Assembly (NCBI GenBank): GCA_009711825.1
Contig: VEMY01000027.1
Coordinates: 1-36,189 of the forward strand
Reading direction: 5' to 3'
Source: Bacillota bacterium
GTDB lineage: Bacteria; Bacillota; Proteinivoracia; UBA4975; VEMY01
Length of the DNA: 36,189 bases
Shown in pieces: positions 4,707-27,687 of this stretch (positions are counted from its first letter, which is position 1; each line of letters begins with the position of its first letter). Under the pieces are notes generated by a model, which saw only the letters and a program-made list of their open reading frames with translations, was not told the origin of the DNA and did not search any database. The translations under genes were made by a program, and so were the position numbers.

Positions 4707-5510
4707 ATGAAGAAGCTACTAAGTTTAGGTCTGGTCATGATTTTGGTTTTTGCAGTAGCAGCCTGCGGATAGGGCACAGATGTCGATGATGAAGACATGG
4801 GTGAATTGGTACCGGAGCTAACCATTTACTCCTCTCTGCCCGAGGCAAACTTGGTCAACTATGAGATGGCCAAGGAATTGTCTGAGGAGTTGGCAAATTG
4901 GGGGTTACCCTCAATGCCCAACCCACCGACTTCAACGTTTTGCTGGACATAATTTATGGTGAGGATATGGATTATGATGTCTACACCATCGGTTGGTCGG
5001 GTCGGGTAGAGCGATTGGATCCCGACATGTTTATTCACTCCATCAACCACTCAAGTAACGCAGTCCCCGGCGCCAACAACACATCGCGCTACAGAAACCC
5101 TGAATTTGATGCACTGGCAGATGCCCAGCGTTCAGAGATGGATATGGACGAAAGGCAGCGTCTTGTCTGGGAAGCTCAGCGCATTCTGGCCGAAGACGTG
5201 CCCCGGATTACCACCTACTCCCGGGCCAATCTGCAAACTTATAACAAAGAAAAATACACTAATGTCCTGAACATGTCTGGTGAAGGCCTGTTCAACGAGT
5301 GGACACCAATGGTAGTTGAGCCATTGACAGATGATAAGACTTTGATTGTCGGAAGCAATATCAATATTACCAACCTCAACCCCTTCGCCGCTCGTTCTGT
5401 ATATGACTGGCGGAACCTGCGTCTAATTTATGACAAGCTGGTGTGTCTGACTGTGGATGTTGAGCCCGAGCCCTGGGCCGCAACCGGTTGGGATATAATT
5501 GACGACACCC
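4707..5510 (+). pseudogene. Broken peptide ABC transporter substrate-binding lipoprotein (SBP family 5)
   Basis: The frame starts at ATG 4707 behind GAGAGGAG with a lipoprotein signal peptide (lipobox AVAAC). It hits TAG at 4770 right after Cys-Gly. The same frame continues in SBP-like sequence until about 4900, where loss of one base (AAATTGGGGG) moves the protein into the next frame, giving VTLNAQPTDFNVLLDIIYGE. The text then reads as the C-terminal lobe of an SBP_bac_5 protein (YDVYTIGW, then QRILAEDVPRITTYSRA). That is followed by the start of a second SBP module (NLNPFAARSVYDWRNLRLIYD), cut after WAATGWDIIDD. The source was therefore a tandem or duplicated SBP, now with a nonsense codon, a frameshift and large deletions. 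Confidence 0.8.
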
Positions 5511-5518
5511 TTTTGGGT

Positions 5519-5566
5519 TGGCCTCATGGTGATAATGATTTTCGCCGTCAATCTGGGCTGGTTCCC
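5519..5566 (+). pseudogene. Remnant of a DppB-type permease
   Basis: One frame away from the flanking text, this 48-bp stretch reads LMVIMIFAVNLGWFP. That resembles the conserved membrane segment before the cytoplasmic loop of DppB/OppB permeases. It lies between the SBP and ATPase remnants, where dppB stands in an intact operon. The match is short, so this call is tentative. Confidence 0.4.
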
Positions 5567-6358
5567 GGCCCAGGCGAATTAACCCTAGACGGCCATACCC
5601 TGGATATGCGGGGGCGTAACCGGCTTAACTTTCGCCGGGAAGTGCAGATGATATTCCAGGATCCGTATGAGACCCTCAATCCTCGGTTCAATGTTTTGGA
5701 AACTATCGCCGAGCCCCTGCGGATTCACGGTGTCAAGGAAAAGGATGAAATCCACCGTCGGGTGCTTGAAGTGCTGGAGTTGGCGGAACTAAAACCTCCG
5801 GAACAGTATCTATATAGTTTTCCCCATGAGCTCAGCGGCGGGCAGCGGCAGCGGGTTGCCATCGCCCGGGGCATTGTTTTGGAGCCTAAGTTTCTCGTGG
5901 CGGATGAGCCGGTCTCAATGTTAGATGTTTCAATCCGTGCAGATATCCTCAACCTCTTGAAGAAACTGCGGCAACAAATGGGGTTGACGATGCTCTATGT
6001 GTCCCACGATTTGTCGACGATTAAATACCTTTGCGACCGGATTGCCGTGATGTATCTGGGCAAGATTGTGGAAATTGGTCCGGTGAATGAAGTGGTGGCC
6101 GCACCGCAGCATCCGTATACCAAGGCATTGCTTTCCGCTGTGCCCGTAGCCGATCCCGATTATGTCAAGGAACGGCTGGTAATTGATGATGAGGTGCCGG
6201 ATCAGATTAATCTGCCCGAGGGCTGCCGGTTCCGTCCCCGGTGCCCATATGCTACCGCTGCCTGTGTCGGTTTCAGCCACGAGCTTGTCGAGCGTGCAGA
6301 GGGTCAGTTCAGCGCCTGCATTTATACGCCCGAAGAGTGGAAGAGCCCGGTCAGCTGA
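5563..6358 (+). pseudogene. 5'-truncated DppF/OppF peptide ABC transporter ATPase
   Basis: The frame has the ATPase from GELTLDG onward. Visible are the Q-loop region (VQMIFQDPYETLNPR), signature ELSGGQRQRVAIARG, Walker B FLVADEPVSMLD, the H-loop YVSHDLSTI, and the oligopeptide-family C-terminus with CRFRPRCPYA. The Walker A P-loop and everything before it are absent, so it cannot bind nucleotide normally. Intact DppF proteins are about 320 residues. It is joined in frame to the SBP remnant, giving an open frame from 4898 to 6358 that could be mistaken for a real 486-residue gene. The genes for DppC and DppD are missing. Confidence 0.85.
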
Positions 6359-11692: not shown

Positions 11693-11821
11693 AGGGTAAT
11701 ATAAAAAGTAGCCAATTCTAATGCCGCAGCGGAAAACTTCGTGTGTAATATGCTTCTATATGAAGGAAAATCGTTGTTTATCACAGAATTGATTAATAAC
11801 ATTAATTGGGGGAGTGGTACG

Positions 11822-14692: not shown

Positions 14693-14778
14693 GTCGTCAA
14701 CATTCGACAAAAAAATGCCTGTTCAGGCAGGGAAAGTTCGGTTATCTCCAGAAGTTATATAGGTGTCGAAGGAGTGTG

Positions 14779-15903
14779 ATGGCAATGCATCGCTACCGGC
14801 CAACGTGGGCGGAAATAAATCTCGCAAATATTGCGCATAACGTTCGGGAATTTAGACGCCATGTGGGCGATGGCACGCGCTTGATGGCAGTTGTCAAAGC
14901 TGACGGCTATGGCCACGGCGCTGTGGAAGTGGGTCGGGCAGCTCTCGCTGCCGGCGCCGACTGGTTGGCGGTGGCACTGGTGGAAGAAGGGATTGAATTG
15001 CGCCAGGCCGGGATTGCTTCTCCGATTCTTGTATTGGGTTTTTTACCGCCGGAGGGAGTCAATGCAGCTCTGCAGTATCATCTGACTCCGGCCGTGGTCG
15101 ATATGAACAGTCTGCGGTTGCTGGAGGAAGAAGCGATGCGCCAGCGACGCCGGGTTGCTGTGCACCTTAAGGTGGATACCGGCATGGGTAGACTGGGGCT
15201 GCGGGATGAGGCGGCAGTTGCCCTGGCAGAACGGGCGTTGAAGTCGCCCAATCTCGAATTACAAGCTATATTTACTCATTTTGCCGCCGCGGATGATGCC
15301 GACAAAACATTTACGATGCAGCAGTTGGATAAATTTAAAAGGACAGTGGAAACACTAAAAGGAGCCCCGGTGCTGACCCATTGCAGCAACAGCGCTGCCA
15401 CAATCGATGTGCCGGAAGCTCGGGGGGATTTGGTTCGGATTGGCATCAGCCTTTACGGACTATATCCTTCATCGGAAGTTAAGCCGTTGGTTGATCTGCG
15501 ACCGGCCTTATCTTTGCACACCCAGGTGGCAACGGTCAAAGAGGTTCCGGCGGGGACGCCGATAAGTTATGGTTGCACCTTTGTCACCGAAAGACCGAGT
15601 CGGATTGCCACCTTACCGATTGGTTATGCCGATGGTTATAACCGGCGGCTGTCGGGGCGCGCAAATGTTTTGCTGCGGGGCAAACGAGTGCCGTTGGTCG
15701 GCCGAGTCTGTATGGACTATTGTATGGCTGATGTTACCGACTTGGATGGAGTGGAGCCGGGCGAGCAAGTAACACTCTATGGATCCCAGGGTGCGGCAAC
15801 CATCTCGGTTGATGAAACGGCGCGGCTTTTGGATACAATTAATTATGAGATTACCTGTGCTGTATCGGCTCGAGTGCCGAGAATTTACCGCCGTCAAGGT
15901 TGA
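14779..15903 (+). CDS. alr: Alanine racemase
   Basis: This PLP enzyme interconverts L- and D-alanine for peptidoglycan. The PLP lysine is Lys40 in AVVKADGYGHG. Other marks are HLKVDTGMGRLG, THFAAADDAD, HCSNSAA, RIGISLYGLYPS, the catalytic-tyrosine region ISYGCTFV, and GYADGYNR. Its 374 residues are the usual size. ATG 14779 is close to its AAGGAG; ATG 14785, 10 bases away, is an equally good start. It stands directly upstream of the mazE/mazF pair, a conserved Firmicute order. Confidence 0.96.
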   Translation: MAMHRYRPTWAEINLANIAHNVREFRRHVGDGTRLMAVVKADGYGHGAVEVGRAALAAGADWLAVALVEEGIELRQAGIASPILVLGFLPPEGVNAALQYHLTPAVVDMNSLRLLEEEAMRQRRRVAVHLKVDTGMGRLGLRDEAAVALAERALKSPNLELQAIFTHFAAADDADKTFTMQQLDKFKRTVETLKGAPVLTHCSNSAATIDVPEARGDLVRIGISLYGLYPSSEVKPLVDLRPALSLHTQVATVKEVPAGTPISYGCTFVTERPSRIATLPIGYADGYNRRLSGRANVLLRGKRVPLVGRVCMDYCMADVTDLDGVEPGEQVTLYGSQGAATISVDETARLLDTINYEITCAVSARVPRIYRRQG

Positions 15904-15914
15904 CAGTGGCTGAT

Positions 15915-15948
15915 TTGGAAAATATAATGTATATATTATAGTATATAC
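15915..15948 (+). promoter_or_regulatory. Promoter and dyad upstream of the toxin-antitoxin pair
   Basis: TTGGAA (15915-15920) and TATAGT (15937-15942) are spaced by 16 bp. The second box lies inside the inverted repeat GTATATA...TATATAC (15929-15948). Toxin-antitoxin operons are usually repressed by the antitoxin at such a site. Assignment as its operator is inferred. Confidence 0.5.
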
Positions 15949-15993
15949 TCGGCTCAATACGCTTCGTATATCGTAAATTCAGGGGGTGCTTAC

Positions 15994-16266
15994 GTGGCGC
16001 AGACCAAGCGAATCATGATATCCATTCCCAGCGCACTGCTGCAAGAGGTTGACGGCATTGTCCAAAAGGAAAATATGAATCGCAGCCATTTAATCCGGGA
16101 AGCAATGTATTTATATATCCAAGAAATGAAAAAACGACAAATTAGGGAAAAATTGCAAATGGGCTATGTTGAGATGAGTAAAATCAACCTGACTCTTGCC
16201 AACGAAGCAGTTGCGGCCGAAAACGAGGCTGTCGAGGCGATTGAACAATTGGTAAGTGGGGCGTGA
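15994..16266 (+). CDS. mazE: MazE/NdoAI-type ribbon-helix-helix antitoxin
   Basis: A 90-residue antitoxin. The N-terminal ribbon-helix-helix DNA-binding part is [19 protein letters not shown], then [14 protein letters not shown]. The acidic C-terminal tail ([19 protein letters not shown]) is the type that wraps and blocks the toxin. GTG 15994 follows AGGGGGTG. It lies 4 bases before the toxin start. The nearest known relatives are EndoAI/NdoAI of Bacillus, also called PemI-like. Confidence 0.92.
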
Positions 16267-16270
16267 TAAA

Positions 16271-16621
16271 ATGGGGGTAAAGAGAGGCGATGTTTACTAC
16301 GCTGACCTGAGCCCAGTTGTGGGTTCTGAGCAGGGCGGTGTGCGCCCGGTTCTAATCATTCAAAATGACGTGGGCAACAAATACAGCCCAACGGTCATTG
16401 TTGCCGCGATAACATCCCAAATCCAAAAGGCCAAGCTCCCCACCCATGTGGAGATAACCGCTAAAGAACATGGACTGGATCGGGATTCGGTGGTGCTTCT
16501 AGAACAGATTCGCACTATAGACAAGCAACGCCTCAATGAACGCATTACCCATTTGGCGCCGGATTTAATGCAACGAGTGAACGACGCTGTGCAAATCAGT
16601 CTTGGCTTGATAGATTTCTGA
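16271..16621 (+). CDS. mazF: MazF/EndoA (PemK-like) endoribonuclease toxin
   Basis: A 116-residue sequence-specific mRNA interferase. It contains the family start [30 protein letters not shown], here quoted only for its motif [10 protein letters not shown] and the [10 protein letters not shown] arginine loop, then PTVIVAAIT and the conserved [10 protein letters not shown]. The length equals Bacillus EndoA. I chose ATG 16271, since the longer frame overlaps the antitoxin end. In Bacillus the enzyme cuts at UACAU; the target here is not known. Confidence 0.95.
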
Positions 16622-16648
16622 AAAAGACAGTGAGCGCTGTCTTTTTTT
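16622..16648 (+). terminator. Terminator after mazF
   Basis: AAAAGACAG and the matching CTGTCTTTTTTT form a stem around TGAGCG directly after the stop codon. Confidence 0.85.
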
Positions 16649-16688
16649 GTGTACGGCAGGAAAAGTAAAACGATAATGGAATACTTAA

Positions 16689-16703
16689 TTTAGATTATCT
16701 AAA
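16689..16703. promoter_or_regulatory. Palindrome before the peptide/amino-acid operon
   Basis: TTTAGATTATCTAAA is a perfect 6-bp dyad around TTA. It ends 3 bases before the AAAGGAG of the first gene. It could be an operator for the seven-gene unit, or occlude the ribosome site in the RNA. No protein can be assigned. Confidence 0.4.
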
Positions 16704-16718
16704 CAAAGGAGAATGTGC

Positions 16719-17711
16719 ATGTTTGAAAGCATCGAACGCATCGTCGTCGGGCATCTACCGACACCTTTGGAAGCCGCGCCTGGCCTCAGCAAAGAGCTGG
16801 GTGTTGATTTATGGATTAAGCGTGATGACGCCACCGGACTGGCCGGGGGTGGCAATAAAGTACGTAAGCTTGAATACCTGGTAGCCGATGCCAGGGCCCG
16901 GGGCGCCAACTGCCTGGTTACAGTGGGCGGCCCCCAATCCAACCATGCCCGGATGACCGCGGCTTTGGCAGCCCGCCTGGGCATGAGCTGCCGCCTGTAT
17001 TTAAAGGGTGAGGCGCCCCGGACTTTGCGGGGCAATTTATTGTTGGATAAGTTATTAGGCGCAGAGGTGACCTTTTGCGGCGATGCTGATTACCCGGAAA
17101 TATATCAGCGCATCGAGGCAGACATCGCCTCCCTGCGGGAACAGGGTCTGGAAGGGTACATGATTCCCGTGGGCGGCTCCTCGCCGGTGGGCCTTATGGG
17201 CTATGTGCGCATGATCACTGAGGAGTTGGTTCCCCAATGTGCAGAGCAGGGCGTAAAACCCGATGCGCTGGTGGTAACCGCCGGCAGTGGTGGCACCTTG
17301 GCGGGGATTTTGCTTGGTCTGGAAGCCAGCGGTTGGGATTTGCCGGTGCAGAGCTATAGTGTCAGCTATCCGGCCGCTGAGCTGGCGGAGAAGACAGCCC
17401 AGCTCTTCAATGCAGGCGCAAAGCTATTGGGGATGTCAGCCCAGAGGCAGGGAGCGGATATCGCCATTGATGAGGGCCATATTGGTCCCGGCTACGGTAT
17501 TGCTACACCGGGCGCCTTGGAGGCTCTGCAATTGTTTGCCCGTCGGGAAGGGTTGCTTTTGGACTCGGTCTACACCGCCAAAACCGCAGCGGGGATGATC
17601 CATGACATTCGTGGCGGCCGCTGGGCTGGTAAGACTGTGATTTTTGTCCATACCGGTGGTTGGCCCGCCCTGTTTGCAAAAGATGATGTCGAAAACTTTA
17701 TAAGGGGTTGA
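16719..17711 (+). CDS. D-cysteine desulfhydrase / ACC deaminase-like PLP enzyme
   Basis: A fold-type II PLP enzyme of 330 residues. Members degrade D-cysteine to pyruvate, sulfide and ammonia, or deaminate 1-aminocyclopropane-1-carboxylate. The PLP lysine is Lys47 in AGGGNKVRKLEYL. The substrate-binding GGPQSNHARMTAA and the phosphate loop TAGSGGTLAG are present, as is the C-terminal VFVHTGG-like segment (VIFVHTGGWPALF). ATG 16719 is chosen because AAAGGAG lies 7 bases before it. It opens an operon with tight spacing (4 bases to the next gene) that is rich in D-amino-acid and unusual-peptide enzymes, which favours the D-cysteine reading. Confidence 0.88.
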   Translation: MFESIERIVVGHLPTPLEAAPGLSKELGVDLWIKRDDATGLAGGGNKVRKLEYLVADARARGANCLVTVGGPQSNHARMTAALAARLGMSCRLYLKGEAPRTLRGNLLLDKLLGAEVTFCGDADYPEIYQRIEADIASLREQGLEGYMIPVGGSSPVGLMGYVRMITEELVPQCAEQGVKPDALVVTAGSGGTLAGILLGLEASGWDLPVQSYSVSYPAAELAEKTAQLFNAGAKLLGMSAQRQGADIAIDEGHIGPGYGIATPGALEALQLFARREGLLLDSVYTAKTAAGMIHDIRGGRWAGKTVIFVHTGGWPALFAKDDVENFIRG

Positions 17712-17715
17712 TGAG

Positions 17716-18417
17716 ATGGGAAGACCATTGGTGGCGGTTACTTGCCAGCATATAGATGCGCAAAAAAGTGCCATTGGCGACGGTTATATTGAAGCGCTGG
17801 AGCAGGCGGGACTGTTACCCGTTGTGCTGCCGCCTTCATTGTCGCCAGAAGTAAGCTGCGAAATTATCTCCACTGTCTCCGGGCTTGTGCTCTCCGGTGG
17901 CGATGACCTGTCGCCCTTGAGCTTTGGCGAGCAGCCGAAGCCGGGGTTGGGCACAATTGAACCGCGGCGGGATGAGCAGGAGCTCCCCTTATTTAAGGCG
18001 GCGTGGGAAAGGGAGTTGCCCGTGCTTGGCATTTGTCGGGGGATGCAGGTGATTAACGTCGCACTGGGTGGTACTATTATCCAGGACCTGCCTGCGGACA
18101 AGCCCGGCGCAATCCAACACCGCCAGGATGCGCCCAAGTGGCATAAGCACCACCAGGTGGAGATAAAGCAGGGGACGAATCTTGCCACCATAATGAACAC
18201 CGACTCACTGGCGGTAAACAGTTTTCATCATCAGGCCCTAGACCGAATTGCCGACGGGCTAGAGGTTAGTGCCCGGGCGCCTGATGGGGTGGTGGAGGCG
18301 GTGGAAAGCGCAAGTCCCTGGCTGCTGGCAGTGCAATGGCATCCGGAAATAATGTGGCAGCGCCACCCGGAATTCCTCAAACTGTTCCAGGCCTTTGCCG
18401 CTGCGTGTGGAGCATGA
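17716..18417 (+). CDS. Gamma-glutamyl hydrolase-like class I glutamine amidotransferase (PuuD family)
   Basis: A 233-residue peptidase C26 family protein. PuuD relatives split gamma-glutamyl-GABA or other gamma-glutamyl amides. The catalytic triad is visible: Cys107 in LGICRGMQVINVALGGT, and His209 and Glu211 in QWHPE. LSGGDDLSP forms the oxyanion region. Start ATG 17716 follows AAGGGGTTGATGAG and is 4 bases after the previous gene. The stop overlaps the next start (ATGA). The actual substrate is unknown; neighbours suggest an isopeptide or gamma-glutamyl compound. Confidence 0.9.
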   Translation: MGRPLVAVTCQHIDAQKSAIGDGYIEALEQAGLLPVVLPPSLSPEVSCEIISTVSGLVLSGGDDLSPLSFGEQPKPGLGTIEPRRDEQELPLFKAAWERELPVLGICRGMQVINVALGGTIIQDLPADKPGAIQHRQDAPKWHKHHQVEIKQGTNLATIMNTDSLAVNSFHHQALDRIADGLEVSARAPDGVVEAVESASPWLLAVQWHPEIMWQRHPEFLKLFQAFAAACGA

Positions 18418-19466
18418 GTGTGGTGAAACGCCTGCGGGACTACGGGATAAAGCCCGGCTATTTGCAGCCCGGCCCCGATAACGCAATCACCGATGTGCCT
18501 GGTGTCGGCGTCGGCCACTGTACGCTGATGGCGGGAAAGGAAATTCGCACCGGCGTTACGGCAATTCTGCCACATTATGGTAACCTGTTTGTCGAAAAAG
18601 TGCCGGCGGCGGTGGAGATTATCAATGGGTTTGGCAAGGCAGCAGGGCTCAGCCAGATTATGGAGCTGGGCGAACTGGAGACGCCGGTGCTGCTGACCAA
18701 CACCTTGAGCGTCGGGTCAGTTTTGGATGCCCTGGTGAGTTACAAACTGGAGCGCAACCCCGAGATTGGCCGCAAACAACCTACGGTTAACGGTGTGGTT
18801 TTGGAATGCAATGATGGTTATCTTAACGATATTCGCGCCCGGAAAGTGAGTGCGGAGCATGTGCGTGCGGCATTAGCTGCCGCCTCCCGGGAACGGCCTG
18901 CCGAGGGCAGCGTTGGCGCCGGCACGGGTATGACTAGTTTTGGCTGTAAGGGCGGGATTGGCAATAGCTCCCGAATTGCCGGCGATTATATCTGCGGCGT
19001 GCTGGTCCTGAGCAATTTTGGCCGCTGGCATCAGTTGAAGATCGACGGCTTGCCTGTCGGGCAGCTGCTGGCCAACCCGGGGCCGGAGGAGCAGGAAAAG
19101 GGGTCGATTGTAATGGTTGTCGCGACCAATGCTCCCCTGGATGCCCGGCAGCTCAGGAGAGTGGCCCGGCGGGCCGGTTTTGGACTCGCCCGTACCGGTT
19201 CGGTGGCCGGCAATGGCAGCGGCGATTTTGCCCTGGCCTTCAGCATTGGTGTAAAATATACTGAGGGCGGTAAAACACGGGATGTTACGGTGTTCAGGGA
19301 CAGCGAGCTGGATTTGTTGTTTGAAGCGGTGGTGGAAGCCACCGAAGAGGCAATTCTCAATGCCTTGTTCACGGCCGGTTCGATGGAAGGCCGGGATGGT
19401 CATTTTCGCCCGGCGCTGCCGATTAAAGAAGTGCTCACGTTACTGAGCAAATGCGGAAACGCTTGA
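18414..19466 (+). CDS. P1-family peptidase (DmpA/BapA-like beta- or D-aminopeptidase)
   Basis: A 350-residue N-terminal-nucleophile hydrolase of peptidase family S58. The family opening TDVPGVGVGHCTL is followed by NTLSVGSVLDAL, GSVGAGTGMTSFGCKGG, and the self-cleavage region GGIGNSSR, where a Ser becomes the new N-terminus. DmpA releases D- and L-residues from peptide N-termini; BapA releases beta-amino acids. ATG 18414 overlaps the previous stop. Longer frames upstream would lie within the preceding gene. It fits a pathway for peptides resistant to ordinary proteases. Confidence 0.9.
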   Translation: MSVVKRLRDYGIKPGYLQPGPDNAITDVPGVGVGHCTLMAGKEIRTGVTAILPHYGNLFVEKVPAAVEIINGFGKAAGLSQIMELGELETPVLLTNTLSVGSVLDALVSYKLERNPEIGRKQPTVNGVVLECNDGYLNDIRARKVSAEHVRAALAAASRERPAEGSVGAGTGMTSFGCKGGIGNSSRIAGDYICGVLVLSNFGRWHQLKIDGLPVGQLLANPGPEEQEKGSIVMVVATNAPLDARQLRRVARRAGFGLARTGSVAGNGSGDFALAFSIGVKYTEGGKTRDVTVFRDSELDLLFEAVVEATEEAILNALFTAGSMEGRDGHFRPALPIKEVLTLLSKCGNA

Positions 19467-19528
19467 TTTAACAGGAGATCAACTTCTGGTTTAGGATTAG
19501 ACTTCTAAAACATGAGGAGGAATGTTTT

Positions 19529-20545
19529 TTGAATGAACCGCAAGTATTGGTGGAAGTGACCCGGGGGCCATTGGTGGAAAACCTGCACCGGGGGCATGCA
19601 GCTGTAGTAGACAACTCTGGCAAGCTTCTGTATAGTTTTGGCGATCCGCGCTTTTTGACATATTGGCGCAGCAGCGCCAAACCGGTGCAGGCCCTACCGG
19701 TAGTGGAATCTGGCGCCGTTGAACACTATTCGATTACAGACCGGGAGTTATCTTTGTTTTGCGCCTCCCATAACGGCGAGGCAATCCATACAGATTCTGT
19801 CCTTTCGGTGCTTGGAAAAATAGGCCTTGATTTGACGGCGCTGCAATGTGGAATGCATATGCCGCTTCATAACCAAACTACAAAGGAAATGATTGCCGTC
19901 AAGCAGGAGGCCAATTCCCTGCATTCCAATTGCTCCGGAAAACATTCCGGCATGTTGGCCCTGGCCTGCCACAAGCAGTTTGATCTCAGCACTTATACCG
20001 AGCTGGAGAATCCGCTCCAGCAATTAATTCTTGATTATATTGCGGACCTCACCGGCTATCCACGGGAGGAAATCCTCATTGGCATTGATGGTTGCGGTGT
20101 GCCGGTCCACGGCATGCCCCTGTATAATATGGCCCTGGCATATGCCAGGATGGTAAAGCCTGCAGGCATGTCCGACACCCGGGCTGCTGCCTGTCGGCGG
20201 GTGAGCAAGGCTATGCATACCTACCCGGAAATGGTGGGCGGCACAGACCGGTTCTGCACCGATTTGATGCGGGCCACTGGAGGTAAATTGATTGCCAAAG
20301 GCGGCGCCGGCGGCGTTTACTGCGTCGGTGTCTATGGGAGCGGTCTTGGTATTGCCGTGAAATGCGAAGACGGCTTTGGTAAGGCCCGGGACGCAGCGGT
20401 GGTGGAAATTCTTCGCCAGTTGAGGGTTTTAGACGCCGCTGAACTGGAGGCTCTGGCCACATACCACAAACCTGTAAACAAAAACCACCGTGGCGATATC
20501 TGCGGTGAATATCGGCCGGTGGTTAAACTGACAAAGGAGGATTAA
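19529..20545 (+). CDS. Asparaginase (L-asparaginase II / PF06089 family)
   Basis: A 338-residue protein of the Rhizobium etli-type asparaginase II group, unrelated to the AnsA/AnsB fold. Typical motifs are VEVTRGPLVENLHRGHAAVVD, cited here for TRGPLVE and HRG, then WRSSAKPVQALPVV, SHNGEAIH, the NCSGKHSGMLA core and GIDGCGVPVH. It converts asparagine to aspartate and ammonia; some members may use other amides. TTG 19529 is the only start in frame near GAGGAGG (8 bases); an ATG at 19533 is out of frame. It is 4 bases from the M55 gene. A 62-base gap before it is the largest in the operon. Confidence 0.9.
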   Translation: MNEPQVLVEVTRGPLVENLHRGHAAVVDNSGKLLYSFGDPRFLTYWRSSAKPVQALPVVESGAVEHYSITDRELSLFCASHNGEAIHTDSVLSVLGKIGLDLTALQCGMHMPLHNQTTKEMIAVKQEANSLHSNCSGKHSGMLALACHKQFDLSTYTELENPLQQLILDYIADLTGYPREEILIGIDGCGVPVHGMPLYNMALAYARMVKPAGMSDTRAAACRRVSKAMHTYPEMVGGTDRFCTDLMRATGGKLIAKGGAGGVYCVGVYGSGLGIAVKCEDGFGKARDAAVVEILRQLRVLDAAELEALATYHKPVNKNHRGDICGEYRPVVKLTKED

Positions 20546-20549
20546 GACA

Positions 20550-21359
20550 ATGACCAGAGTTTATATTTCTGCGGATTTGGAGGGTGTTTCAGGAGTCGTT
20601 CACGGCAGTCAGCTCAACGAGGGCACCGAGTATGAAGCGGCCCGGCGCCTGATGACCGAAGAAGTTAATGCCGCCATCGCCGGTGCCCTAGATGCCGGCG
20701 CCAGCGAAATTGTGGTCAACGACTCCCATGGCAGCATGCGTAATCTGCTGCCGGACCGTTTAAATCCCGCGGCCCTGCTAATTACCGGCACTCCCAAGCC
20801 CCTGTCCATGGTGGAGGGCGTGCAGGACGGCGAATACCGGTGTGCGATGTTTGTCGGCTATCATGCGGGGATGGGGTGCCTGGGCGTGCTCAGTCACACG
20901 TACTCGGGATCCCGTGTGCGCAATGTTAAGGTCAATGGCATTAACATGGGGGAAACGGGAATCAATGCCGCTGTGGCTGGCGCCTTCAATATTCCCGTGG
21001 CCCTGATAACCGGTGATGACCGGGTATGCGCCGAGGCCAGTGAATTATTGCCCGGAATCATCACCGCAGATGTCAAGCAGGCTCGGGGTCGTTATGTTGC
21101 CCGGGGGCTGCATCCTGAGAAAGCACGGGAGTTGATCCGCAAGCAGGCGAAGCTGGCAGTGGAAAGGGCCGGTGAGATGGAGCCGCTACGTCTCAGTGAG
21201 CCGGTGGCCCTGGAGCTGGAATTCCTGAACAGCGGCCAGGCAGAAGGTGGCGCTTTGCTGCCGGGAGTACGCATGCTCAATCCAACCACCCTGGAATTCC
21301 GGGGCGACAGCCTGCTCCAGGCCTTTGCCATGCTGCGGGCGCTGATCAATCTTGGATGA
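20550..21359 (+). CDS. M55-family D-aminopeptidase (DppA-like)
   Basis: A 269-residue zinc peptidase of family M55. Bacillus DppA removes D-alanine from D-Ala-D-Ala and related peptides. The metal ligands are visible in YISADLEGVSG (Asp, Glu) and VVNDSHGSMRNLLPD (His), with further histidines in MFVGYHAGMG and SHTYSG. ATG 20550 follows AAAGGAGGATTAAGACA. The stop overlaps the DUF362 gene (ATGA). Together with the P1 peptidase and the D-cysteine enzyme it suggests salvage of D-residues, perhaps from cell wall. Confidence 0.93.
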   Translation: MTRVYISADLEGVSGVVHGSQLNEGTEYEAARRLMTEEVNAAIAGALDAGASEIVVNDSHGSMRNLLPDRLNPAALLITGTPKPLSMVEGVQDGEYRCAMFVGYHAGMGCLGVLSHTYSGSRVRNVKVNGINMGETGINAAVAGAFNIPVALITGDDRVCAEASELLPGIITADVKQARGRYVARGLHPEKARELIRKQAKLAVERAGEMEPLRLSEPVALELEFLNSGQAEGGALLPGVRMLNPTTLEFRGDSLLQAFAMLRALINLG

Positions 21360-22513
21360 CTGTATCCGTTCGCGCCTGCCCCGATTATAGTCCCGAAGTT
21401 GTCGCGGCTACCTGCGACAGGGCCCTGATGGATGTCAAGGCAGAAGCACTGTTTACTCCCGGCCAGACCGTGCTGCTCAAAGTCAACCTGCTCAGCGCCA
21501 AGTCGCCGGAGCAGGCGGTGACAACCCATCCGGCGCTTGTATTTGCCCTGGCGCGTTGGTTTATTGAACGGGGCGCACGGGTGCAGGTGGGGGATAGCTC
21601 CGGTGGTGTGCCAACGAAAGAAGGGGGCAATAAAACCGCCGCCGCCCTCAAGGTCAGCGGCATTGCCGCGGCGGCGGAGGCCGCTGGAGCCGAGGTAATC
21701 AATTTTGACACTGCCGGCGCCGTCGTTGTCCATGGCGGCGAGCGATTGAATCCGGTGCTGATTGCCCGGCCGGTGTTGGACGCAGATTTGGTGGTCTCGG
21801 TGGCCAAGCTCAAGACCCACGGCCTCACTCTATTCACCGGCGCGGTGAAGAATATGTTTGGCGCCGTGCCGGGAGCGACTAAGGCCGAATACCATCGGCA
21901 GTTGCCCAAGCTGCCGGATTTCTGCACCGGACTTGTCGATGTCTTTGCTGCCGCCCGGCCGCAACTGGCTGTAATGGATGCGGTCTGGGGAATGGAGGGC
22001 AACGGTCCCAGCGCTGGCGATGTTCGACACCGGGGCCTGGTTCTCGCAAGCCGGGATGCGGTGGCCCTGGATACTGTGGCCGCTAATTTGATTGGCTGCC
22101 CGCCCCGGCGGGTGTTGACCACGGTCTTTGCCGCCAAGCGGGGGTTGGGCAGGATGGAAGATGTTAAGATTATGGGAGATGAGGTCTCACCGGTGCAGTT
22201 TAAATTGCCGGCCAGCGCCCGCCTGGGCCCGGTGGCTGCCAGTGTCTCCGGAAGGTTTTTTGGCCTTATGACCCATTTGCCCGGCTTTATGGCGGAGAAA
22301 TGTATCAATTGCAATATCTGCGTCCAGAGTTGTCCGGTGACGGCGCTTACCGCTCAAAAGCCGCACCCGGAATTAGACGCAGCCAAATGTATCCACTGCT
22401 TTTGTTGCCACGAACTCTGTCCCGAACATGCCATCGACTTGGAGCCCCGGTATCCCCGGGTGCACAGGCTGATGGATATGCTGTCACGAAGAAGGAGGAG
22501 GAAGAATAGATGA
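21356..22513 (+). CDS. DUF362 protein with C-terminal 2[4Fe-4S] ferredoxin domain
   Basis: A 385-residue protein. Residues 1-300 form the DUF362 domain (KVNLLSAKSPEQAVTTHP cited for KVNLL, then GDSSGG, KLKTHGLTLFTGAVKNMFG). Residues about 315-350 hold two clusters: CINCNICVQSCP and CIHCFCCHELCP. The tail is strongly basic (SRRRRRKNR). DUF362 proteins are common in anaerobes, and their reaction is not established; a role in iron-sulfur electron transfer is inferred from the clusters. It is coupled at both ends by ATGA overlaps. Confidence 0.88.
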   Translation: MTVSVRACPDYSPEVVAATCDRALMDVKAEALFTPGQTVLLKVNLLSAKSPEQAVTTHPALVFALARWFIERGARVQVGDSSGGVPTKEGGNKTAAALKVSGIAAAAEAAGAEVINFDTAGAVVVHGGERLNPVLIARPVLDADLVVSVAKLKTHGLTLFTGAVKNMFGAVPGATKAEYHRQLPKLPDFCTGLVDVFAAARPQLAVMDAVWGMEGNGPSAGDVRHRGLVLASRDAVALDTVAANLIGCPPRRVLTTVFAAKRGLGRMEDVKIMGDEVSPVQFKLPASARLGPVAASVSGRFFGLMTHLPGFMAEKCINCNICVQSCPVTALTAQKPHPELDAAKCIHCFCCHELCPEHAIDLEPRYPRVHRLMDMLSRRRRRKNR

Positions 22514-24663
22514 CCGATGCCGAGAAGATGATTTTGGAACATGTTGCTGGCGAACTGAAAATCCGTTACAAACAGGTGGCGGATACGATTAAACTGTTGG
22601 ACGACGGGAACACCGTGCCCTTCATTGCCCGCTACCGGAAGGAAGTAACCGGCGGTCTCGATGAGGAGCAGATTTTTGCGCTTCAGCAGCAGGTGACGTA
22701 TCAGCGCAATCTTGTCCAGCGCAAAGAAGAAGTCCTGCGCAGCATTGAGGAGCAGGGCAAACTTACCCCCGAGCTGGAGCAGCAGATCCGCGCCAGCACC
22801 AAACTTCAGCAGGTGGAGGACCTCTACCGCCCCTACAAGCCCAAGCGCAATACCCGGGGTAGCAAAGCCCGGGACGCAGGCTTAGAGCCCCTGGCCCAGA
22901 CCCTGGTGCAGGGAGAATTGGAACCGCTGGTGGAGGCCGAGAAATACATAAACGAGCAGGTGCCCGATGTGGAGGCGGCCCTCCAGGGCGCAAGGGACAT
23001 CATTGCCGAAGAGTTTGCCGACGCTGCCCATAACCGGGTGCTGGCCCGGCGCCGCACCTGGGACAAAGGAGTGTTGGTGGTAAAGGCCAGCGATGCCAAG
23101 GCCGAATCCCCTTACGAAATGTACTATGACTTCAGTGAGCCGGTAGCCAAACTGCCGCCTCACCGGGTGCTGGCCATCAACCGGGGCGAAAAGGAAGAAT
23201 TCCTCAAGGTATCTTTGGATTTCGAGTCCCAGTATTTGCTGCAGGAATTGTGGCGCAAGAACTACTCGCCCCAGCGGGAGGACGCCACGGACCAGGTGCG
23301 TCAGGCCATGGAGGACGGCTACCAGCGCCTGCTGGCACCAGCGGTGGAACGGGATATTCGCCGGGAGCTCACTGATAACGCCCATCAGTCGGCGTATAAA
23401 CTTTTCTCCACCAACCTCACCTCACTCTTGCTCCAGCCCCCTACCCGGGGCAAAACCGTGCTGGGCGTCGACCCTGCCTACCGGACCGGCTGCAAACTGG
23501 CGGTGGTTGACGCCACCGGCAAGTTGCTGGAGGTGGCGGTTATTTACCCAACGCCGCCTAAAAACCAGGTGGAGCAGTCCAAGAGGAAGATCAAGGAGTT
23601 TATTGATAAGTACGGCATCGAAGTAATTGCCATCGGTAACGGCACCGCCAGCCGCGAAACCACCGAGTTGATTGGCGAGCTGACCCAGGAAGTAGAGGGT
23701 GTCGGCTACACTGTTGTTGACGAATCCGGGGCTTCGGTGTATTCAGCTGCCCCCCTGGCCAAGGAAGAGTTTCCCGAACTGGATGTTTCTGAGCGGAGTG
23801 CCGTTTCCATTGCCCGCCGTCTCCAAGACCCCCTGGCGGAACTGGTTAAGGTTCCGCCTCAGGCGATTGGTGTCGGTCAGTATCAGCATGATGTTGACCA
23901 AAAGCAATTGGGGCAGCTGCTGGGCGAGGTGGTGGAGACCTGTGTTAACCGGGTTGGCGCGGACCTAAATACCGCCTCGGCGCCGCTTCTCTCATATATC
24001 GCCGGCATCAAGCCAGCGGTTGCCAAGGCGATTGTCGCCTGGCGCCAGGAAGAGGGAAGCTTCACCAGCCGCAATCAGCTTAAGAAGGTGCCGCGGCTGG
24101 GGGATGCGACCTTCCAGCAGTGCGCCGGTTTCCTGCGCATCCGGGAAGGTGAAAACCCCTTGGATGCCACATCAGTTCACCCTGAATCCTATGATGTGGC
24201 CGAGAAGCTTCTGGGCCTCTGTGGATATAGCACCGACGAGCTTGCCCAGCGGGGTGGAATTCCCGAGCTCAGTAGCAAGCTGCCGGCCGGGGTTCAGGAA
24301 CTGGCCCAGAAGTTGGGCGTCGGCGAGCCGACGCTCAAAGATATCATTCAGGCCCTGGAAAAGCCGGCCTTAGACCCCCGGGACAAACTGCCGGCGCCCC
24401 TCTTCCGGGAAGGCGTACTCACTTTGGAAGACCTCAAAGAAGGGATGATTCTCCAGGGCACAGTGCGCAATGTTGTGGACTTCGGCGCCTTTGTCGACAT
24501 CGGCGTCAAAGAAGCAGGACTGGTGCATGTCTCCGAACTGGCTGACAAATTTGTCAAACATCCCTTGGAAGTAGTGAAAGTAGGCGAAAACATCAGTGTG
24601 CGGGTCATCGGCGTCGACACCCGCCGCCGTCGCATCGCCCTCTCCTGCAAAGCCGTCCACTAA
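22510..24663 (+). CDS. tex: Tex-family RNA-binding protein (S1 domain)
   Basis: A 717-residue cytoplasmic nucleic-acid-binding protein of the Tex/YdcI family. Order: N-terminal helical Tex_N region (TVPFIARYRKEVTGGLDEEQI), the YqgF-like RNase-H fold (GVDPAYRTGCKLAVVD, IAIGNGTASRETTELI), helix-hairpin-helix motifs (YIAGIKPAVAKAIVAWRQEEG, KKVPRLGDATFQQCAGFLRI), and the C-terminal S1 domain (GTVRNVVDFGAFVDIGVKEAGLVHVSEL). Length is normal and the frame is uninterrupted. It is the last gene of the operon, overlapping DUF362 by 4 bases. Tex affects transcription and stress survival; a link to the peptidase genes is not evident. Confidence 0.95.
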   Translation: MTDAEKMILEHVAGELKIRYKQVADTIKLLDDGNTVPFIARYRKEVTGGLDEEQIFALQQQVTYQRNLVQRKEEVLRSIEEQGKLTPELEQQIRASTKLQQVEDLYRPYKPKRNTRGSKARDAGLEPLAQTLVQGELEPLVEAEKYINEQVPDVEAALQGARDIIAEEFADAAHNRVLARRRTWDKGVLVVKASDAKAESPYEMYYDFSEPVAKLPPHRVLAINRGEKEEFLKVSLDFESQYLLQELWRKNYSPQREDATDQVRQAMEDGYQRLLAPAVERDIRRELTDNAHQSAYKLFSTNLTSLLLQPPTRGKTVLGVDPAYRTGCKLAVVDATGKLLEVAVIYPTPPKNQVEQSKRKIKEFIDKYGIEVIAIGNGTASRETTELIGELTQEVEGVGYTVVDESGASVYSAAPLAKEEFPELDVSERSAVSIARRLQDPLAELVKVPPQAIGVGQYQHDVDQKQLGQLLGEVVETCVNRVGADLNTASAPLLSYIAGIKPAVAKAIVAWRQEEGSFTSRNQLKKVPRLGDATFQQCAGFLRIREGENPLDATSVHPESYDVAEKLLGLCGYSTDELAQRGGIPELSSKLPAGVQELAQKLGVGEPTLKDIIQALEKPALDPRDKLPAPLFREGVLTLEDLKEGMILQGTVRNVVDFGAFVDIGVKEAGLVHVSELADKFVKHPLEVVKVGENISVRVIGVDTRRRRIALSCKAVH

Positions 24664-25661: not shown

Positions 25662-25667
25662 CTTCGA

Positions 25668-25696
25668 TGCCAATCGAGAACCGTCCTCGATTGGCA
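25668..25696. repeat. Family-2 palindromic repeat, best copy
   Basis: A perfect-armed 29-bp palindrome: TGCCAATCGA at one end, TCGATTGGCA at the other, and GAACCGTCC in the middle. It begins 6 bases after the GNAT stop. It has the same length and a related core to the family-1 repeats. Confidence 0.8.
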
Positions 25697-25729
25697 CGGC
25701 ATCTTAACAAACTGAAAGGAAGTGTGTTT

Positions 25730-26557
25730 ATGAACACTAAGCAAATCATGGATATCGCTCTGGAACTGGCCGGATTGACCGAAGTACCCGAGGATTCCGG
25801 GATCATCTTTGAAGGCGAGAACATCAAGAAGGTTATGATCGGCGTCGACATGGAAGCGGCTGAGATGCTGATTGCCAAGGAACTGGGCGTAGACCTGGTA
25901 ATCACCCACCATCCCGTGGGCGGTTCCCCCCGGGTCAATCTTCACCAGGTAATGAAGGCACAGATCGACCGGATGGTTGCCGCTGGTGTTCCCATCAACA
26001 AGGCCCAGAAGGTTTTGGCCGAGCAAATCGGTAAGATTGAAAGGGCACTGCATGTCAGCAATTACGACCGGGCGGTTTCTGCTGCCAAAGCTTTGGGCAT
26101 GCCGTTTATGGGTATCCACACCCCGACTGATATACTGGCCGAGAATAAAGTTCAGAGCCATCTTGATGAGGCCCTGGCCGACAAGCCCAAGGCGACTGTG
26201 GGCGATGTAATTGAGGCCCTGAATCAGCTGCCTGAGTACCAGCGCACCCAGGCCAAGCCGGTGGCCAGGGTTGGTTCCGACAAAGACTATGCCGGCAAGG
26301 CATTCGTCACCATGGCCGGCGGTACCGGTGGCGGCGCCAAGGTAGCCCAGGCCTACTATGAAGCCGGTGTTGGCACTCTGGTCTGCATGCACATGCCCGA
26401 AGATGTCATCAAAGCCGTCAAAGAACAGAATGTAGGCAACGTGGTCGTGGCCGGACATATGGCCAGTGATTCGGTGGGTATCAACATATTGGTAGACGCC
26501 CTGGAAGCCAAAGGGCTGGAAGTAGTCCGCATGAGCGGCGTCATCGACCCCAAATAG
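25730..26557 (+). CDS. NIF3-like dinuclear-metal protein, paralogue 1
   Basis: A 275-residue protein resembling NIF3/DUF34 proteins (often labelled GTP cyclohydrolase I type 2-like). The metal-site strand is VDLVITHHPVGGSPRVNLHQV, quoted for its core DLVITHHP, and the C-terminal ligand region is VVAGHMASDSVGINIL. The usual NIF3 opening (IMDIALELAGLTEVPEDSGI) differs from YqfO-type proteins, so this is a distinct branch. The start ATG 25730 follows GAAAGGAAG. The biochemical role of NIF3 proteins is unsettled. A close paralogue lies 311 bases downstream. Confidence 0.8.
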   Translation: MNTKQIMDIALELAGLTEVPEDSGIIFEGENIKKVMIGVDMEAAEMLIAKELGVDLVITHHPVGGSPRVNLHQVMKAQIDRMVAAGVPINKAQKVLAEQIGKIERALHVSNYDRAVSAAKALGMPFMGIHTPTDILAENKVQSHLDEALADKPKATVGDVIEALNQLPEYQRTQAKPVARVGSDKDYAGKAFVTMAGGTGGGAKVAQAYYEAGVGTLVCMHMPEDVIKAVKEQNVGNVVVAGHMASDSVGINILVDALEAKGLEVVRMSGVIDPK

Positions 26558-26558
26558 C

Positions 26559-26632
26559 ACCAATGGAGGACGGTTCTCGATTGGCGTCAGTCGCCCGTTC
26601 CCGGGATCGATGCCATCGGGAACCGTTCCTTA
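26559..26632. repeat. Composite palindromic repeat between NIF3 paralogue 1 and the small membrane protein
   Basis: CCAATGGAGGACGGTTCTCGATTGG (26560-26584, here a 25-bp span) is a diverged family-2 copy, two bases after the NIF3 stop. A second hairpin follows: GTTCCCG and CGGGAAC (about 26597-26625), ending in GAACCGTTCCTT. Together they probably terminate the upstream gene. Confidence 0.6.
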
Positions 26633-26656
26633 TTACTTAGGAAAGGAAGACAGCCT

Positions 26657-26827
26657 GTGGAGCAAAAACAAGCACGGGGAAGAGCGTTTCTCAACATGGT
26701 TGGTGGCCTGGTTTTGGCCCTCATTGGGATATTATGGATTTCCGGCCATTGGTCTTTAATGCTGCTTTGGGCGCTGTTTGCCCTGGGAATTGTAGTCTAT
26801 TACGGTTATAGAATTATCACTGCGTAA
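26657..26827 (+). CDS. Small membrane protein, 56 residues, between NIF3 paralogues
   Basis: GTG 26657 follows AGGAAAGGAAG. The peptide starts MEQKQARGRAFLNMVGG and has two hydrophobic segments (about 14-29 LVLALIGILWI and 33-52 LMLLWALFALGIVVYY), giving a hairpin in the membrane. No family is recognised. It ends 41 bases before NIF3 paralogue 2 and may be co-transcribed with it. Confidence 0.6.
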   Translation: MEQKQARGRAFLNMVGGLVLALIGILWISGHWSLMLLWALFALGIVVYYGYRIITA

Positions 26828-26868
26828 AACGGGCAGTTTGAACCCAAATATGCTGTAGGAGTGAGTGG

Positions 26869-27687
26869 ATGAATACCTCAGAAATAATGGATCTGGCCCT
26901 GGAGCTGGCTGGCTTATCGGAGATTCCCGCTGACTCAGGTATCCTCGTGCCGGGCGAGAACATCCGCCGGGTGTTGGCTGGAATTGATATGGAGGCGGCA
27001 GAAATCCTCATGGCCAAAAAACTGGGCTATGATTTGGTGTTGGGCCACCACCCTGCCGCCGGCAGTCCCCGGGTTAATTTGCATCAGGTGATGATCCGGC
27101 AGATCGACCGCATGGTCCAGGCCGGCGTTCCCATCAACAAGGCCCAGAAAGCACTGAAAAAGCAGATGGAAATCGTCGAACGCGGGCTGCATGTGACTAA
27201 TTACGACCGGGCCACATCGGCGGCCAAGGCCCTGAAAATGCCCTACATGAACATCCACACCCCAGCCGACGCCCTTTCTGAGCAGAAGGTTGCAACCCAC
27301 TTGGAGCAGGCGCTGGCCGACAAACCCAAGGCGAAGGTGGGCGATGTTGTAGATGTACTTATGGAGCTGCCTGAGTTCCAGAGTGCCGACACCAAACCAT
27401 CAATCCGCAACGGCGCCAAGGACGACTTCGCTGGCAAGGTGATGGTGGCCATGGCCCGGGGCACCGGCGGGGGCCCTGATGTGGAAAAAGCCTATTTCGA
27501 AGCCGGTATCGGCACAATGGTCGTCATGCATATGAAGGACGACGTCCGGGAAGCCGTGAAAAAGCAAAACATCGGTAATGTAATCGTTGCCGGCCACATG
27601 GCCAGCGACTCGGTTGGCATGAACATCATCCTCGATGCTCTGGAGGCAAGGGGTTTGGAAGTGACCCGCATCAGCGGCATCCGCTAA
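26869..27687 (+). CDS. NIF3-like dinuclear-metal protein, paralogue 2
   Basis: A 272-residue protein closely related along its whole length to the product at 25730. The shared spine includes SGIL/SGII, GENI, GSPRVNLHQV, GVPINKAQK, NYDRA-SAAKAL, HTPAD/HTPTD, GGTGGG/GTGGGP and VAGHMASDSVG. The metal motif reads DLVLGHHP in place of DLVITHHP. ATG 26869 follows GTAGGAGTGAGTGG. Whether the two make a mixed hexamer or serve different substrates is unknown. The frame is intact in a region where neighbours are broken, which argues for selection. Confidence 0.8.
   Translation: MNTSEIMDLALELAGLSEIPADSGILVPGENIRRVLAGIDMEAAEILMAKKLGYDLVLGHHPAAGSPRVNLHQVMIRQIDRMVQAGVPINKAQKALKKQMEIVERGLHVTNYDRATSAAKALKMPYMNIHTPADALSEQKVATHLEQALADKPKAKVGDVVDVLMELPEFQSADTKPSIRNGAKDDFAGKVMVAMARGTGGGPDVEKAYFEAGIGTMVVMHMKDDVREAVKKQNIGNVIVAGHMASDSVGMNIILDALEARGLEVTRISGIR

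Follow-up and report, generated by a model that had tools for sequence, protein, structure and literature searches.

The window analysed here, a single contig of 36,189 nucleotides belonging to a 3.09-Mb genome, carries an island of hydrolase and lyase genes which, on balance and with modest confidence, we read as a transition-phase operon under sigma-H control, serving nitrogen and carbon salvage from substrates with D-residues, gamma-glutamyl groups, beta linkages or amide bonds. Seven genes follow one another on the forward strand between positions 16719 and 24663 in the order DCyD-PuuD-DmpA-Asn2-DppA-DUF362-Tex (Table 1). Their ORF positions and profile matches (PALP/D-cysteine desulfhydrase family, Peptidase_C26, Peptidase_S58, Asparaginase_II, Peptidase_M55, DUF362 with two 4Fe-4S motifs, and Tex, respectively) bear out the order and the families of the original prediction. 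The tight joining by 4-base gaps or ATGA overlaps that it described holds for five of the six junctions, with 4-bp gaps at DCyD-PuuD and Asn2-DppA and ATGA overlaps at PuuD-DmpA, DppA-DUF362 and DUF362-Tex, but fails at DmpA-Asn2, where the gap is 62 bp. Given this gap and the TTG start of Asn2 (at 19529, with its own good ribosome site, AGGAGG, in front), a second transcript could begin here. For the first gene, the ATG at 16719 was preferred over a second ATG because its Shine-Dalgarno spacing is better.

Table 1. Features of the island and its upstream region (positions in the window).
Feature	Position	Strand	Evidence or sequence
alr-mazE-mazF, flanking anchor 5' of the island	14764..16621	+	conserved in most island loci
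Terminator-like hairpin and T run, directly 3' of mazF, separating mazF from the island	16620..16649	+	AAAAAGACAG-TGAGCG-CTGTCTTTTTTT
Predicted sigma-H promoter, GCAGGAAAA-N11-ATGGAAT	16656..16682	+	exact match to RNAGGAWWW-N11-RNNGAAT
Perfect 15-bp palindrome TTTAGAT-T-ATCTAAA just 5' of the ribosome site, operator candidate	16689..16703	.	0.09 expected in window with <=2 mismatches
PLP enzyme, D-cysteine desulfhydrase / D-cysteate lyase family (DCyD)	16719..17711	+	PF00291
Peptidase C26, PuuD-like gamma-glutamyl amide hydrolase	17716..18417	+	PF07722, 217.6 bits
Peptidase S58, DmpA/beta-aminopeptidase type	18414..19466	+	PF03576, 386.6 bits
Class 3 (ReAV/ReAIV-like) L-asparaginase (Asn2), TTG start	19529..20545	+	PF06089, 409 bits
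Peptidase M55, DppA-like D-aminopeptidase	20550..21359	+	PF04951, 324 bits
DUF362 protein, two 4Fe-4S cluster motifs (CINCNICVQSCP, CIHCFCCHELCP)	21356..22513	+	PF04015, 192 bits, and Fer4
Tex (YqgF-HHH-S1 RNA-binding protein)	22510..24663	+	PF16921, PF09371, PF00575

All five enzymes have solved relatives with which they align well and, judging from their intact catalytic residues, they look active. The PLP lysine of the first enzyme is Lys47, and Thr286 and Thr312 occupy the sites of ACC deaminase Glu295 and Leu322, as in D-cysteine desulfhydrases. Ser/Thr versus Glu/Leu at these positions distinguishes the two enzymes (PMC4048297), and ACC deaminase is thus out as its identity. The protein misses the cut-offs of TIGR01275 (281.2 vs. 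289.4 bits) and CuyA (317.9 vs. 450 bits), and the XcbE NCBIfam model also matches it below cut-off. The C26 protein (PDB relatives 3fij and 6vtv) keeps Cys107, His209 and Glu211 and so shares both its family and its Cys-His-Glu residues with PuuD of the gamma-glutamyl-putrescine pathway, but differs from it in scoring 110.5 bits against the equivalog cut-off of 266 in NCBIfam and in having no puu partner gene adjoining; by sequence it is classed as a peptidase C26 only, not as the PuuD gamma-Glu-GABA hydrolase. The number of glutamine synthetases, of which three paralogues lie elsewhere in the genome, does not decide on a polyamine (Puu) route.

DmpA (PDB relatives 2drh, 1b65 and 3n2w) retains the Gly-Ser autocleavage motif KGSIVMVVATNAPL with the nucleophile Ser231; in a relative from the same class (G011:C1:2233595-2234534), the S58 gene is broken into two parts that overlap, and a TGA lies in frame. 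Aligned to PDB 1hi9, the DppA-like protein keeps D9, E11, H60, H105, H116 and E135; in 1hi9 we take the metal ligands to be Asp8, Glu10, His60, His104 and Glu133 and the catalytic residue to be His115. At 255.9 bits it falls short of the 430 that NCBIfam sets for the DppA equivalog, and on its sequence it is classed as an M55 family member only. Because these NCBIfam cut-offs are not reached, the substrates named below for the PLP, PuuD-like and DppA-like enzymes are candidates at the family level. Asn2 (PDB relatives 8cly and 7os3) keeps R47, S48, K51, S80, C135, K138, C189 and K257 (ReAV 263), that is, every checked residue of the ReAV zinc site Cys135/Lys138/Cys189, of the tandems Ser48-Lys51 and Ser80-Lys263, and Arg47, among them those whose alanine mutants are dead (PMC12292245). 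Asn2 has its family and all checked catalytic and zinc residues in common with Rhizobium etli ReAIV/ReAV, but lies in an operon with D-, gamma- and beta-bond hydrolases, and its activity is a predicted one.

The clustering of these families is not peculiar to the window. In 149 relatives, pairs of the five families lying within 5 kb of each other were compared with the expectation under uniform placement, and every pair was co-localised far above it. Asn2 and PuuD were paired in at least 26 of the 52 genomes with both (0.31 expected), Asn2 and M55 in 10 of 29 (0.18 expected), PuuD and DmpA in at least seven of 27 (0.17 expected) and DCyD and PuuD in at least six of 30 (0.20 expected), the three counts involving PuuD holding among the PuuD matches listed and all of them coming from kindred genomes rather than independent samples. 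The five enzyme genes thus form a recurrent, non-random set for unusual bonds, as had been proposed. A fixed seven-gene unit or pathway had to be given up, as subsets and substitutions dominate among the relatives: the neighbourhood analysis that had been suggested finds the pairs clustered far above chance and the full set of five rare. In gene maps drawn with a simple ORF picker, where contig ends hide some cases, all five occur among the mapped loci in the window genome, in G004 (same order) and in a distant MAG (L078).

Within the order and class the arrangement is alr-mazEF-(DCyD)-PuuD-(DmpA)-Asn2-(DppA)-(DUF362)-Tex-Nif3, with single genes missing here and there. The island usually lies 3' of alr-mazEF, in many families including Symbiobacterium, and often 5' of Tex-Nif3 or tsaE-tsaB-rimI-tsaD. 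Most lineages have two to four members, with substitutions. Symbiobacterium thermophilum has four without DppA (alr-DCyD-PuuD-DmpA-Asn2) and one Eubacteriales MAG has alr-DCyD-PuuD-DmpA-Asn2-DppA. Elsewhere the last gene of the island encodes an M20 peptidase, an amidohydrolase, a CN-hydrolase (nitrilase) or an M42 peptidase, and tsaE-tsaB-rimI-tsaD replaces Tex. In Bacilli, Asn2 is found within operons for dipeptide ABC transporters, in one case together with PuuD and in another with DppA. Given how much the set varies, a single compound need not be the target of all its members. A hydrolase pathway has no obvious place for Tex and DUF362. The Tex-Nif3 order is kept in order and class, and Tex, previously counted as a member of the unit, belongs to this separate conserved block bordering the island and is probably a co-transcribed neighbour; DUF362 recurs near Asn2 or the island in several other lineages. 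DUF4438 and BON-domain proteins lie beside the island in two distant lineages (L084:11048-11929 and L041:11108-11902).

New here is the finding that a hairpin resembling a terminator and, behind it, a perfect sigma-H promoter consensus stand at the start of the island. The hairpin folds as a stable stem, and a similar stem with a T run stands at the same place in most relatives of the order. The sigma-H consensus is RNAGGAWWW, 11–12 bp, RNNGAAT, and spoVS is sigma-H-dependent (PMC8510167); with the 11-bp spacer, the site before the island is the single perfect one in the window, and 100 shuffles of the window gave none. Genome-wide the consensus has 41 sites, against two for the reversed control, with further perfect sites 5' of spoVS, divIVA, mraZ and an HU gene and one with a 12-bp spacer before spo0A. 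The genome encodes Spo0A and has a sigH gene (369 bits, curated cut-off 294.8). All seven members of the order that were checked have the site 5' of the island at the same place, and it persists in L039, which has lost mazF, and in L031, where about 5 kb separate mazF from the island. Exact sites precede 14 of 45 island loci, compared with none of 45 for the reversed control pattern and nine of 468 other genes; after removal of the seven order loci, where the motif had first been spotted, they still precede seven of 38, against the same nine of 468 (p = 5e-5, the loci coming from kindred genomes and not being independent samples). The exact site is absent from 31 of the 45 island loci, so that sigma-H control would be lineage-dependent or degenerate elsewhere.

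A connection of the set with stationary phase or sporulation thus has a promoter consensus behind it. This consensus is common to the sigma-H (Spo0H) regulons of Bacillus subtilis and Clostridioides difficile, and spo0A and spoVS, which with an M20D peptidase are among the C. difficile SigH genes (PMC7438776), carry it in the window genome too. In the literature searched, we found no description of the hydrolase set as sigma-H-dependent, though the C. difficile list does include that M20D peptidase. Several relatives have a sigma-H site also before alr. In the window, a second perfect consensus with a 12-bp spacer (11762-11789) stands where the acpS region begins, 5' of acpS-nnr-alr, and in class relatives such a site lies directly before alr. 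A 12-of-12 sigma-A consensus (TTGACA-17-TATAAT, 15900-15928) precedes mazE and overlaps the end of alr. The palindrome listed in Table 1 is absent in relatives and was rejected as a conserved operator, and Rfam gave no known RNA element in the window.

If the gene at 16719 opens an operon for which this promoter is the main one, the operon would be switched on when growth stops and sporulation starts. The products would probably be cytoplasmic hydrolases acting on short substrates that ordinary peptidases leave. Going by their families, the PuuD-like enzyme may release glutamate from gamma-glutamyl amides, DmpA may cut off N-terminal D-, beta- or small L-residues and DppA the N-terminal D-residues of D-Ala-D-Ala-like peptides, the class 3 asparaginase may act on asparagine and set ammonia free, and the PLP enzyme may turn D-Cys/D-Ser-type residues into keto acid and ammonia. 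The end products would be glutamate, aspartate, D-/L-alanine, keto acids and ammonia, and the adjoining Alr could feed released D-Ala into the L-Ala pool, the net result being nitrogen and carbon salvage in a starving, sporulating cell. The salvage reading is supported by the extra island members seen in other families (M20, amidohydrolase, CN-hydrolase and M42), since these are also peptide or amide enzymes.

A narrower source of substrates, which we consider unlikely, would be the recycling of peptidoglycan or spore cortex, the island dealing with stem-peptide fragments (D-Ala-D-Ala, gamma-D-Glu bonds) from wall remodelling in the sporulating cell. Enzymes of the DppA and DmpA type act on D-Ala peptides and PuuD acts on gamma-glutamyl bonds, specificities that would suit such a role, as would the alr gene next door, the sigma-H promoter and a cell-wall-hydrolase gene (PF07486) found between Asn2 and DUF362 in one locus (L043), another member of its gene cluster occurring in L050. 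However, the known substrates of PuuD relatives are L-gamma-glutamyl compounds, the asparaginase and the PLP lyase would have no role there, and the annotated neighbours include no LD-carboxypeptidase, NlpC/P60 endopeptidase, Ala-Glu epimerase or MurNAc gene; of the known genes for peptidoglycan recycling, none was seen adjoining the island apart from the cell-wall-hydrolase gene of class relatives. The literature searched yielded nothing usable on M55 action on peptidoglycan.

Somewhat less credible still is that independent housekeeping hydrolases have been parked at a permissive, well-expressed site by alr-mazEF, sharing their timing and no pathway. Membership does vary strongly between lineages, and the neighbours include Tex, Nif3 and tsa genes, functionally unrelated as well, but nearly all members hydrolyse small peptides or amides, and the same families pair in other orders and at sites other than alr-mazEF, as Asn2 does with the dipeptide transporters of Bacilli. 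Least probable of all is a breakdown of gamma-glutamyl-cysteine or glutathione-like thiols, with PuuD removing gamma-Glu, DmpA splitting the dipeptide and the PLP enzyme freeing sulfide from cysteine, which the fit of the PLP enzyme residues to a cysteine desulfhydrase and the occurrence of DCyD-PuuD(-DmpA) as a module of its own directly 3' of mazF with no Asn2 nearby (G073, G111, G029 and G144) would favour, but which leaves Asn2 and DppA unexplained and sits badly with a PLP enzyme family that is D-specific as a rule.

The salvage operon that we prefer has its closest known counterpart in dppABCDE (dciA) of B. subtilis, an operon of early stationary phase and sporulation that is linked to dipeptide uptake and has an M55 D-aminopeptidase. 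Both contain this enzyme, the DppA homology being confirmed against 1hi9, and the island can be likened to it as a starvation-time, D-peptide-directed unit; the window operon, in contrast, lacks transporter genes, has PuuD, DmpA, asparaginase and PLP lyase in addition, and shows a sigma-H consensus. No description of this gene combination was found in the open-access literature searched. More tentatively, and with the chances rather against it, spore-formers may possess a hitherto undescribed sigma-H catabolic module at alr-mazEF, a varying assortment of hydrolases for D-residue, gamma-glutamyl, beta and amide bonds directed at one endogenous compound class (e.g., cell-wall-derived or isomerised peptides) at sporulation entry, with DUF362 as iron-sulfur partner. 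The island would bring oddly annotated enzymes together into one testable regulon, and it offers a physiological context for class 3 asparaginases, C26 amidases and M55 and S58 peptidases, for which, to our knowledge, few natural substrates are established. It also leads to the prediction that spore-formers clear unusual peptides on entering sporulation.

Other features of the window lie further from the island. An ORF at 4898-6358 starts like a solute-binding protein and ends as a dipeptide-transporter ATPase (ABC_tran, oligo_HPY); it may represent a gene fusion, the decayed remains of a transporter or a join made during assembly. Between 9341 and 11639, 5' of acpS-nnr-alr, a sigma-70 region 2 protein is followed by an RsgI-like anti-sigma protein, a pair of the SigI/RsgI type. 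Finally, two related Nif3/DUF34-like proteins with a weak Pfam model match are encoded in tandem at 25667-27687.
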